A stretch of DNA of 33,883 nucleotides, from contig CANGIC010000007.1 of NCBI GenBank assembly GCA_947453795.1, positions 1 to 33,883 on the forward strand, read 5' to 3'. Within the stretch, counting starts at the first letter, position 1. Every line of letters begins with the position of its first letter. Made by a program: the position numbers and the translations under genes. This document shows, in pieces, positions 24,139 through 28,241 of this stretch. The notes under the pieces were generated by a model. The model searched no databases and was not told the DNA's origin. It worked only from the letters and a program-made list of their open reading frames with translations. Source of the DNA: Flavobacteriales bacterium. GTDB taxonomy: Bacteria > Bacteroidota > Bacteroidia > Flavobacteriales_D > Crocinitomicaceae.

Positions 24139-25248
24139 CTAGAAATTACGGATTAATTTTCTGCCCTTCCATTTCGGTTTAAACCAGTACATCATACATA
24201 GGATGAGTAGGGTGTAGAATGGAAAAAGGAACTCGTAGATTGGGATAAAAAACCACGATTTCAGGCGTCCAATTCTACGGAAATAAGGGAAGAATAGCCC
24301 CATATCGATTGCCGTCTTTACCCCGAAAATCAGCCAGAATGAACACCAGTCATGCGCAACGCCTTTCGCCGCGAGTAAAGCCACAAAAGCGAAAGTCAAT
24401 GCGGCTTGTATGATTGCGAGCGCGGTACTCAGATGATCTTTTACATCACCCGTTTTCGCTAACCATCTCAAGCGCTGATGGATAAATTCCGAAAAGGATT
24501 GAGGTGTTTCTGTGTGGATGGCTAAAGCGGGATCTGTCATCAAACGCACATCTGCAGCGCCCTCTCTGAAGTCTCTCAGTAGGTAAATATCGTCACCACT
24601 TGGCATGTGGGCATGGCGCTCAAAGTGATCTAAGCGCACAAAGGCCTCCCTGCGGTACAATAGATTTGCGCCACTCGCCATGATCGGACGCTTCCACCCT
24701 GCCAATCCACAGTTTGCCGCATTCACCAAAATCAAATCGACTTCATACAAGTGCTCGTACCAGCGTTTCGCCACCATCACCGCGGGTAGAATATACATGT
24801 CCGCTGCTTCCAAGTTCGAGAGTGCTATAAAATAGTCACGCTGAAAGCTGATATCGGCATCCATGGACAAAATCCATTGTCCACTGCTTTGTTCTATTCC
24901 ACGTCGAATCGCCACTTTTTTTCCTTCCTCATTTTCCTTCAATTCGATGATTACGGCATGGGATGGATTTGTTTTTTTCATAATAAAGGGTGCCGACCCG
25001 TCATCGGAATGGTCGTCCACGAATATATATTGCATTGGACTTGCCGTTGCATTCTCGATAGATTGGAGCAGAGGAGACAACCGATTTTTCTCATTTCGAA
25101 AAGGAATAATGACAGCTACCTGTTCATTCAACACCTTTTCAAAACCATTCACATAGTGCTTTTCTTTTCGCCGTTGAAGAATATATCCCCAGCCAATGAT
25201 TCCAAACAAAATACCTCCATACATCGCGAAAAAAAGTCCTACCATCAT
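24139..25248 (-). CDS. Family 2 glycosyltransferase, membrane-anchored
   Basis: This 369-residue protein has an N-terminal helix (about 4-24), a GT-A domain and three C-terminal helices. Signatures are VAVIIPFRNE (44-53), VDDHSDDGS (77-85), DAD (130-132), GDD (218-220) and QRLRW (258-262), the last typical of processive or membrane GT2 enzymes. Its ATG overlaps the stop of the upstream flippase-like gene in an ATGA junction, so the two are translationally coupled and probably act in one pathway, such as glycolipid or surface-polysaccharide synthesis. The sugar is unknown. A second ATG follows directly and could be the true start. Confidence 0.85.
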   Translation of the reverse strand: MMVGLFFAMYGGILFGIIGWGYILQRRKEKHYVNGFEKVLNEQVAVIIPFRNEKNRLSPLLQSIENATASPMQYIFVDDHSDDGSAPFIMKKTNPSHAVIIELKENEEGKKVAIRRGIEQSSGQWILSMDADISFQRDYFIALSNLEAADMYILPAVMVAKRWYEHLYEVDLILVNAANCGLAGWKRPIMASGANLLYRREAFVRLDHFERHAHMPSGDDIYLLRDFREGAADVRLMTDPALAIHTETPQSFSEFIHQRLRWLAKTGDVKDHLSTALAIIQAALTFAFVALLAAKGVAHDWCSFWLIFGVKTAIDMGLFFPYFRRIGRLKSWFFIPIYEFLFPFYTLLILCMMYWFKPKWKGRKLIRNF

Positions 25249-26182: not shown

Positions 26183-26740
26183 ATGGTTGAAGATAAGATT
26201 ATTCTCGGAATTGACCCCGGAACCACGATTATGGGATATGGACTTATTCATGTGCAGAAGAATCAATTGACCATGCTCAACTTCGGCATTGTTCAACTCA
26301 ACAAGTTGCCGACACACCCCGATAAACTCAAGCGCATCTTCGATCGTATTTCTGGAATCATTCAGGAATACAAACCAGATGAACTAGCCATTGAAGCGCC
26401 ATTCTTTGGGAAAAATGTGCAATCTATGTTGAAACTAGGTCGTGCCCAGGGTGTAGCGATTGCTGCAGGTTTAAGCCACAATATTCCTTTTGAAGAATAT
26501 TCACCGAAACGCGTAAAACAGGCCATTACAGGAAGTGGTAGTGCTTCGAAAGAACAAGTTGCAGCCATGTTACAAAAGCTTCTCAAGTTTGAGGAAATGC
26601 CCAAATACCTAGATGCTACTGATGGTCTAGCTGTGGCGGTATGTCATCATTTTTCTAAAGGTATAGGCGAACACAACAAATCGAAAGGTGGTGGATGGGA
26701 TTCATTTATTCGCCAAAATCCAGACCGTAAAAAAGAGTAG
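26183..26740 (+). CDS. ruvC: Holliday junction endodeoxyribonuclease RuvC
   Basis: This 185-residue RNase H-fold nuclease resolves four-way DNA junctions with RuvAB. All four catalytic acidic residues are visible: Asp11 (LGIDPGT), Glu71 (AIEAPFF), Asp144 and Asp147 (YLDATDGLAVA). The loop SPKRVKQAITGSGSASKEQV (107-126) is also typical. It begins a three-gene plus-strand cluster; the next gene starts 1 bp after its stop. Confidence 0.96.
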   Translation: MVEDKIILGIDPGTTIMGYGLIHVQKNQLTMLNFGIVQLNKLPTHPDKLKRIFDRISGIIQEYKPDELAIEAPFFGKNVQSMLKLGRAQGVAIAAGLSHNIPFEEYSPKRVKQAITGSGSASKEQVAAMLQKLLKFEEMPKYLDATDGLAVAVCHHFSKGIGEHNKSKGGGWDSFIRQNPDRKKE

Positions 26741-26741
26741 C

Positions 26742-27386
26742 ATGAATGGGGAACACCAATCCAGCATTGCGTTTTGGCCCATTTTTTCCATCGGCGGAAT
26801 CTCGTTATTTGTCGTCTTCTTTTTTATTGCAGCAGCACATTATCCGGGGGGTTCTAATGCCCACTTGCACGCCATTGGATTCAGCTGGGCGGACAACTAT
26901 TGGTGTGAATTATTGGGTGAAAATGCAAAAAATGGGGTGCGAAATCTTGCACGCCCTTATGCCATGATTGGTATGGTAATCTTATCGGTGTCGGTTTCTG
27001 TTTTTTGGTGGAACATTCCTAAAATGGTCTATGAAAAAAGTCGACTTATCCGAAGTGTCATGCGGTATTGCGGTATGTTATCCATGCTCTTTTCCGCGTT
27101 AATTTTCACCAATTGGCACGATGGAATCATCTACGCGGCTGTAATCACAGGCGCTGTCTCATTCACACTGCTGTTCTACGAACTTTTTCGCAACAAGCGA
27201 GACTTTTTATCCTACTTTGGTGTTGTTTGTCTTGGCTTCATTTTCATGAACTGCATTATGTACATCACCAATTTCGGCATTGAATTTCTACCACTAATTC
27301 AAAAGATCACCTTTGCCATAACATTGATTTGGATCATCCTTGTAATTTTACAGTTGAAAAAGCACACCTATCCGTCAAAGACATGA
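26742..27386 (+). CDS. Six-helix membrane protein of unknown function
   Basis: The 214-residue protein has six predicted helices at about 13-32, 74-92, 105-123, 127-146, 156-176 and 186-205. The loop after helix 1 (YPGGSNAHLHAIGFSWADNYWC) is long and conserved-looking, and FTNWHD (122-127) is a possible polar functional motif. The layout recalls DUF998-like proteins, but I am not sure. The ATG at 26742, one base after the ruvC stop, is chosen over the upstream GTG within ruvC. It is translationally coupled to the next gene through an ATGA overlap. Confidence 0.75.
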   Translation: MNGEHQSSIAFWPIFSIGGISLFVVFFFIAAAHYPGGSNAHLHAIGFSWADNYWCELLGENAKNGVRNLARPYAMIGMVILSVSVSVFWWNIPKMVYEKSRLIRSVMRYCGMLSMLFSALIFTNWHDGIIYAAVITGAVSFTLLFYELFRNKRDFLSYFGVVCLGFIFMNCIMYITNFGIEFLPLIQKITFAITLIWIILVILQLKKHTYPSKT

Positions 27387-27748
27387 TGAAAAAGCGCAAA
27401 CCCAACAAGAATATTCTATCGACGAAAGACTTCATCCTTCGGATGATTAAATTCTTCTTGATATCCCTGAGTTTTATGGCTGTGTCCTTGCTTATCGGAG
27501 TGCTTGGTTACCGGCATTATGCCAATCTCTCCTGGATTGATAGTTTTTACAATGCCTCGATGATCCTCACGGGTATGGGACCTGGAAATATTCTTACGAC
27601 CACAGGAGGAAAGGTTTTCTCATCCTTGTATGCTTTGTTTAGCGGTATCGTTTTCTTGACAACTGCGGCGATTTTCATCTCCCCAATTGCCCATAGGTTG
27701 TTGCATTTATTGCATGTGGATGAGGAGGATGAAGAAGTTTCAGCATAG
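27383..27748 (+). CDS. Two-helix protein resembling a potassium-channel pore with altered filter
   Basis: This 121-residue protein has helix 1 at about 22-42, a short amphipathic pore-helix-like segment (WIDSFYNASMIL, 51-62), then TGMGP (63-67) where two-helix potassium channels have TVGYG, then helix 2 at about 78-100 preceded by GGKVFSSLYALFSG, as in the channel family. The tail is acidic (HVDEEDEEVSA). The topology and spacing match KcsA-type pores, but the filter lacks the Tyr-Gly pair, so potassium selectivity is doubtful. The start overlaps the previous stop (ATGA); a second ATG follows at 27386. The family may be uncharacterised. Confidence 0.7.
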   Translation: MMKKRKPNKNILSTKDFILRMIKFFLISLSFMAVSLLIGVLGYRHYANLSWIDSFYNASMILTGMGPGNILTTTGGKVFSSLYALFSGIVFLTTAAIFISPIAHRLLHLLHVDEEDEEVSA

Positions 27749-27827: not shown

Positions 27828-28241
27828 ATGTTATTTCCATTAATATCAATCGTTTCTAAGGGAATCTTCAAAACAATTGAAATGGCCAGAAGTAAAAGAG
27901 AAATCTATCTCGAGATGTGCAAGAAAAAATGGGACGGAAAGGGTGAATACCAAAGTTGTCTCAGAAATTTACGGAACTCAAAGACCAAAAAACACATCAT
28001 GGCACCCGCATGGTTACTCGTGCTCTTAGTGGCCGCATATTTCAATTGTCCTGCATGGGCGATGATGCTGGCTAGTATACCAGTGCTTGTGAAAATTCAC
28101 AAAATTCATAAAGAGCTAGACCATAAAATAAGAGTTTCAACATTGGCTATGTTTTGCCTGGAAATTGAATTTGGGGCATCAAAAACAAGTGATGAACCAG
28201 AAATGACAGATGCGTTAATCGATTTGTTCGGGAGCAAGTAA
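27828..28241 (+). CDS. Hypothetical protein with one or two membrane segments
   Basis: The 137-residue protein has a basic N-terminal half (MARSKREIYLEMCKKKWDG from residue 19), two adjacent hydrophobic segments (about 60-73 and 76-90) and an acidic C-terminus (EPEMTDALIDLFG). The start could be 27828 or the ATG at 27882. I recognise no family. It ends 10 bp from the end of the DUF350 operon on the other strand and appears to be transcribed alone. It is a real gene by composition and length, but support is modest. Confidence 0.55.
   Translation: MLFPLISIVSKGIFKTIEMARSKREIYLEMCKKKWDGKGEYQSCLRNLRNSKTKKHIMAPAWLLVLLVAAYFNCPAWAMMLASIPVLVKIHKIHKELDHKIRVSTLAMFCLEIEFGASKTSDEPEMTDALIDLFGSK

Follow-up and report, generated by a model that had tools for sequence, protein, structure and literature searches.

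The window, by which we mean the whole stretch of 33,883 nucleotides analyzed here, carries on its forward strand a short gene for a channel-like pore protein, preceded by ruvC and by a gene for a six-helix membrane protein. The features of this region, with residue numbers referring to the channel protein, are as follows:

26183-26740, forward strand: ruvC, Holliday junction endonuclease, the upstream gene of the run (Pfam RuvC, 1e-45).
26742-27386, forward strand: six-helix membrane protein, 214 aa, with no significant Pfam family (open reading frame, structure prediction, Foldseek).
27383-27748, forward strand: channel-like pore protein gene of the GMGP family, 121 aa (open reading frame, Pfam and profile matches, relatives, predicted structure).
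27422-27520, forward strand: helix 1, residues 14-46 (structure model; G39 and G42 invariant, R20 and Y43 near-invariant).
27533-27568, forward strand: pore helix, residues 51-62 (structure model; D53 and M60 near-invariant, L62 invariant).
27569-27589, forward strand: filter-like loop T63-G64-M65-G66-P67-G68-N69 (conservation, profile alignments; family form [T/G/A/S]GMGP, then usually V).
27602-27709, forward strand: helix 2, residues 74-109 (structure model; K77, F79, Y83, G88, F91 and P101 conserved).
27692-27715, forward strand: histidine motif H104-R105-x-x-H108-x-x-H111, at the helix 2 end facing the cytoplasm (conservation; sidedness deduced from the channel fold).

The channel open reading frame begins with the ATG at 27383, its stop ends at 27748 (121 codons plus the stop), and the protein carries TGMGP and GKVFSSLYALFSG; coordinates and motifs are thus those claimed in the preliminary description of this DNA. 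One base lies between the ruvC stop and the six-helix start, and the six-helix stop overlaps the channel start in ATGA (27383-27386), so that ruvC, the six-helix gene and the channel gene probably share one message. A scan for promoter-like sites (3 versus 6.6 expected) and terminator-like sites (2 versus 2.0 expected) added no support for an operon, and the operon claim therefore rests on gene spacing. About 80 bases 3' of the channel gene, on the same strand, 27828-28241 encodes a predicted protein of 137 residues with a hydrophobic stretch; it matched no Pfam family at E 1 and may belong to the same gene run. A glycosyltransferase-like gene occupies 24139-25248 on the reverse strand, and relatives of it, judged alike by eye from the cluster representative, turn up near the channel gene, on the strand opposite to it, in 13 of the clustered loci.

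Two same-genus homologues of the channel gene gave a dN/dS of 0.036 when compared with each other. Against the window gene, its two nearest homologues, of the same genus, gave pN of 0.05-0.07 and pS of 0.72-0.73, the latter near saturation, which makes the ratios of 0.02 and 0.03 rough. With pN low relative to pS and a dN/dS indicative of purifying selection, this open reading frame is a real, strongly constrained protein and not a chance one.

The AlphaFold2 model of the channel protein (single chain, 71 sequences) reached a pLDDT of 85.3 and a pTM of 0.71, and both this model and its structural matches have the helix, pore helix, filter loop and helix fold of the two-helix K+-channel pore superfamily. 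With the single window sequence as query, the PDB returned KCNK3 (TASK-1) at 1.1e-6 and NaK at 1.1e-3, and a family profile of 38 members matched NaK (2ahy) at 6.9e-5 and, at 1.6e-6, a NaK mutant that mimics CNG channels. Profile-profile comparison was made with channels of Bacteroidota that had scored below the family in our genome scan, and it gave a probability of 97.6% (E 3.5e-12) for three RCK-type pores and of 97.1% (E 4.9e-11) for six short channels with a TIGYGD filter. The window protein scored 22.3 bits against the Pfam family Ion_trans_2 (PF07885), whose cut-off is 22.5, and 23.4 bits in a genome search; at E 0.1 or better, 19 of the 38 members matched this family, the window protein with the best E-value. 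A Foldseek search of the PDB gave 742 matches, none of them under 0.001, the best having an E of 0.013 with a probability of 1.00; the best 50 of the 742 were NaK variants save for one entry described as a potassium-selective channel. VIA-align superposed the model on NaK2CNG (4zbm; Z 12.0, rmsd 5.1, 94 residues aligned) and on the MthK pore (3ldc; Z 11.1, rmsd 3.1, 81 aligned), Z values of 11-12 lying in a range where, as the tool warns, helical proteins may share a common arrangement only. Since Z alone is insufficient for a helical protein, we combine these values with the sequence profiles, and together they indicate that the channel protein is homologous to ion-channel pores at the superfamily level. 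The proposed likeness to channel pores is therefore borne out by significant profile similarity and agreeing fold matches, and the two absences that had been named as telling against it, of profile similarity to channels and of conservation in the filter-like segment, were looked for and did not occur.

The preliminary description had TGMGP standing in place of TVGYG and suggested SGMGP/TGMGP as a possible family motif. Among 61 members gathered without any motif query, L[TGAS]GMGP is present in 55, and it still holds in 41 of 45 once the profile seed (14 of the 61, from the same genus and order) is removed. Two of the 61, the broken copy L023 and a divergent Proteus member, fall outside the 59 in which the loop is aligned, and the four aligned exceptions read GGEGPV (Thioclava), GGMGLV, SGLGII (L160) and GVMGAV. 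The motif is thus indeed that of a family, with GGMGP as its commonest form in the genome-scan set: the first place is G in 34 of the 59, and the residue after the proline, G68 in the window, is V in 49. Neither GYG nor GFG occurs in the filter position of any of the 59, so no TxGYG-type signature was found.

How the loop is laid over a K+ filter depends on the comparison. A PDB profile alignment and a gapless stretch against the TIGYGD channels place T-V-G-Y-G-D over G64-M65-G66-P67-[V, here G68]-[D/N69], and the VIA-align ranges fit this register (94 residues aligned between model 20-114 and chain 19-113; 81 between model 23-103 and MthK 18-99), the support being taken from the ranges and not from a residue-level alignment. 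The comparison with the RCK-type pores gives another register, with GMG over GFG and a gap of two residues. On these alignments, GMGP[V/G] over TVGYG is the better-supported register, although it is not fully settled, so that the replacement of the filter stands while its exact register needed adjustment. In either register the aligned TVGYG signature is missing, and the inner-filter TVG stretch of the NaK/CNG type is not kept, being GMG in the favored register and LTG in that of the RCK comparison. The altered filter is confirmed, at the level of sequence, as a family trait that is nearly invariant across phyla. The position that we take to correspond to the pore-helix Trp68 of KcsA is Asn57 in the window protein, and it is N in 99 of 118 sequences, a set that is partly motif-selected.

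These motif counts rest on the 61 members obtained from a genome scan and a plasmid search in which no motif was asked for; they derive from 73 different rows, of which 12 were left out for scoring less than 60 bits (canonical channels, a fragment of a broken copy and one spurious match). A further 80 named loci had been found through the motifs MIL[TA]GMGP and HRL..H..HV and were included in the 118-sequence conservation set, and counts from that set consequently cannot prove those motifs. In the scan of genome contigs that supplied these 80, at least 513 relatives were confirmed; the 80 kept include Planctomycetota, Verrucomicrobiota, Nitrospirota and Margulisbacteria. The family as a whole spans Bacteroidota, Planctomycetota, Verrucomicrobiota, Nitrospirota, Margulisbacteria, Alphaproteobacteria and Cyanobacteria; from plasmid records come Thioclava, Gloeothece and the divergent Proteus mirabilis member (30% identity, in chromosome-sized records labelled plasmid), whose loop reads SGQPVEP and whose histidines are kept. 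A profile scan of Bacteroidota at E 0.001 matched 104 of 395 genomes, 44 of them above 60 bits, with the next score at 44.5; two of the 44, G161 with internal stops and G369 with a partial copy, were excluded from the 61 as weak or broken hits. Most of the weaker matches are open frames of 331-420 residues, and those whose sequence was inspected are canonical channels, either RCK-type (L017, L019, L165, L166) or short (L021, L162-L164, L167, L168). In a tree of 75 rows the sequences cluster by phylum (5 changes for five groups, against a minimum of 4 and a shuffled mean of 9.9), with many forks unresolved, and in our sample this gives the impression of an old family passed on mostly by vertical descent. 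No NCBIfam family matched the channel protein at E 1, and two annotated plasmid homologues are labelled “hypothetical protein.” Public annotation sometimes gives such proteins the name potassium channel family protein, a name that should not be given from homology alone. A search of open-licence papers, by titles and abstract starts, returned no description of the GMGP channels; in that literature the protein has a known fold with a filter class for which no report was found.

The second conserved element lies at the end of helix 2, which reads P101-x-x-H104-R105-x-x-H108-x-x-H111. HxxxHxxH is present in 53 of the 57 members whose alignment covers that end; the four remaining members all lack it, giving 53 of 61, and the three histidines are found in 39 of 43 when the profile seed is removed. 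With a spacing of i, i+4, i+7 they share a single face of the helix, and we take them, from an alignment with NaK, to lie at the inner mouth of the pore. One or more of the three are missing in 8 of the 61 members: all three are gone from Gloeothece and one from each of L128, L138, Thioclava and L144, and L146, L149 and L150 are without the motif. Because of these eight, gating by the histidines cannot be universal in the family.

The filter of K+ channels is among the most conserved motifs known, and the lineages that have replaced it (NaK, CNG, CASTOR) have been instructive about selectivity. The GMGP family, whose members are about 120 residues long, carry no additional domains and have a different filter fixed across phyla, amounts to a clean natural experiment; it raises the questions of which ion GMGPV passes and whether three histidines are able to gate a pore, and the small size of the protein puts direct structural and bilayer studies within reach. 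NaK (2ahy, 3e83) and its CNG-mimicking mutants (4zbm, 3k06) are the best family-profile and fold matches, with the same two helices, pore helix and short loop at a similar length. The NaK filter, however, is TVGDG where the GMGP family has [T/G]GMGPV, and to our knowledge NaK has no HRxxHxxH end. The pore part of MthK and of the Bacteroidota RCK-type K+ channels gave the strongest profile-profile match and shares IGxxGY, W-D and K-F around the pore with the family, but these channels read TVGFGEV, TVGFAEV or TVGYGEV and have an RCK domain, which the GMGP protein lacks. The short TIGYGD channels of Bacteroidota are similar in size and in the order of their elements, and their filter aligns with one gap in the following loop; they nevertheless keep a canonical filter, have neither GMGP nor HRxxHxxH, and score 31-38 bits against the family profile, the lowest counted member scoring 68. 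The plant nuclear channels CASTOR, POLLUX and DMI1 are tetrameric pores in which TVGYG is replaced (PMC6697748); an RCK gating ring is present in them, as is an acidic residue in the filter, and they are compared with the GMGP family by description only. No RCK-like cytoplasmic domain of the CASTOR/POLLUX type was found in the channel protein, which ends 12 residues past helix 2.

The model that we favor, whose chances of being right we put as evenly balanced, has the protein form a homotetrameric cation pore in which the filter is of a non-K+ kind and a cytoplasmic histidine collar serves as the gate. The channel protein would be the single subunit of a small inner-membrane homotetramer with the KcsA/NaK pore fold, its K+ filter replaced by the family-specific L-[T/G]-G-M-G-P-V, and the lining of the outer mouth would consist of four such loops. 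In the favored register, glycine would replace the threonine of the innermost K+ site and proline the filter tyrosine, and because of these two changes the queue of four K+ sites known from TVGYG is not expected to form. Cations may pass such a filter with weak or altered selectivity, much as they do in NaK and CNG channels. Four copies of HRxxHxxH would form a histidine collar near the inner mouth, closing or opening the pore on protons or on a metal ion. Pores with replaced filters are known to conduct, and the available precedents point in different directions: CASTOR, without TVGYG, is Ca2+-selective (PMC6697748), whereas TbIRK, with a GGYVG filter, prefers K+ over Na+ about 7-fold (PMC5429665), and the ion passed is for this reason not readable from sequence.

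The gene neighborhood was then compared across 112 loci, which differ in length, so that all neighbor counts given below are lower bounds. The predicted structure of the six-helix protein, modelled from only 5 sequences, has a short helix in addition to six long ones, and it had no good match among solved structures (best Foldseek E 0.51). Its best Pfam match was DUF4010 (E 0.2), and nine members of its family gave one match each to DUF5985 (0.0016), MerC (0.011) and DUF998 (0.49). In a hand count of 60 genomes, 15 had a full-length channel, 11 had the six-helix partner, 7 had both and 6 had the two adjacent. Coupling of the two proteins, as proposed earlier, agrees with the ATGA overlap in the window but is looser in the wider sample than had been suggested: 8 of the 15 channel genomes are without the partner and 4 of the 11 partner genomes without a full-length channel, and the regular co-occurrence expected of a two-component system was not observed. 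The proposed operon with ruvC similarly fits the gene spacing in the window, but the link recurs in only 12 of the 112 loci, 8 with the genes adjacent and 4 with a gap of 543-640 bases holding the six-helix gene. All ruvC-linked loci are Flavobacteriales or Crocinitomicaceae by title except L040 (Flavobacteriia) and L039 and L045 (Chitinophaga pinensis); the contigs of these three match genomes of the window's genus, and the Chitinophaga pinensis title is probably a naming slip of bins. The six-helix partner and ruvC are lineage-specific neighbors.

Other neighbors differ between lineages. A DUF1003 gene lies on the same strand in 12 of the 112 loci, overlapping or within 150 bases in 9 of them and with a 4-base overlap in four; since this family is rarely named in the open-licence literature, the channel link may help to assign it. 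The DUF1003 genes overlap the channel open frame in L042, L043, L048, L055, L071, L074, L099 and L101. A scan of 42 neighbors identified an MscS-type gene twice and a bestrophin and a chromate transporter once each. The Thioclava channel gene is flanked by a patatin and an MscS-like gene, and that of Proteus mirabilis (L038, 2440-3840) lies between two universal-stress-protein-like genes, Usp having been found once in each of two Pfam scans of neighbors. Among the best 25 of the 72 and of the 57 same-strand neighbor families in those scans, most occur once. As neighbors vary in this way, no observed partner is obligatory.

The best-surviving alternative, which we still consider unlikely, is that the channel fold is used for a role other than ion passage, as a non-conducting subunit or a sensor regulating, for example, DUF1003, VIT1 or the six-helix protein. 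A proline-containing loop in place of the filter would suit such a role, and 4-base overlaps like those with the DUF1003 genes (four loci) and with the six-helix gene are often seen for subunit genes. However, the neighbors change between lineages while the filter stays fixed, which argues for a function carried by the loop itself, and the six-helix partner is absent from more than half of the channel-bearing close genomes (8/15).

Less probable again is a pore or leak for divalent metals that acts together with metal transporters, in which the histidine collar would bind Fe2+, Mn2+ or Zn2+ and the filter would pass the metal. VIT1 lies on the same strand in 7 of the 112 loci, and in 6 of these it overlaps the channel gene or is separated from it by less than 20 bases or so (its identity in L064 is supported by a Pfam match at 1.1e-66), and the three conserved histidines at i, i+4, i+7 would be suited to binding a metal. 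Yet all six of these adjacent loci belong to Flavobacteriales, judging from title or lineage, 105 of the 112 loci have no VIT1 in the stretch examined, and the one VIT1 gene of the window genome is on a different contig from the channel. The filter also lacks a conserved acidic residue before the trailing D/N, unlike CASTOR with D265 (PMC6697748). A broader version of the favored cation-pore model, in which the family is a separate, ancient class of tetrameric pores across phyla, with a fixed GMGPV filter selecting a non-K+ ion and a histidine gate responding to metal or protons, possibly tied to Fe2+/Mn2+ handling through VIT1, is one that we put forward tentatively and regard as doubtful.

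As improbable as the metal pore is the reading that the pore is K+-selective after all, GMGPV keeping two or three carbonyl K+ sites in the manner of the GGYVG filter of TbIRK and the protein serving as the K+ leak or uptake pore of the cell. In the window genome (G000, 91.55% complete) the channel gene is the only Ion_trans_2 match over the cut-off, with one other scrap at 12.7 bits, and the search found neither TrkH nor DUF1003; another K+ pore of the Ion_trans_2 or TrkH families, the two that the search for K+ systems covered, is therefore not evident there. The K+ preference of TbIRK, which lacks the signature (PMC5429665), also speaks for this reading. Against it stand glycine and proline in the favored register, at the inner-site threonine and the filter tyrosine respectively, and the second filter glycine, which is kept in the window but is usually valine in the family (49/59). 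The homotetrameric cation pore with a non-K+ filter remains our preferred reading.

Two further candidates were set aside. A match to SieB (superinfection exclusion) reached 0.0084 in Pfam with 16.2 bits, below the cut-off of 26, and 10 of the 38 members matched it at E 0.1. A viral or mobile origin with a phage role is unlikely, as viral contigs scanned with the single channel protein held no relative, phage records gave none at E 0.01, and the family profile found just two loci on viral contigs (L172 and L173, IMG/VR), which could be host sequence. In L137 (1495-3339, reverse strand) a channel-family stretch ends an open frame of 614 residues, either as a fusion or because the frame runs on upstream. 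Broken or partial channel copies with internal stops are present in same-genus genomes at G007:C1:53656-53919 (L023), G010:C119 (L018/L024) and G018:C317 (L016); in G007 the degenerate copy begins 3.8 kb past an intact one.
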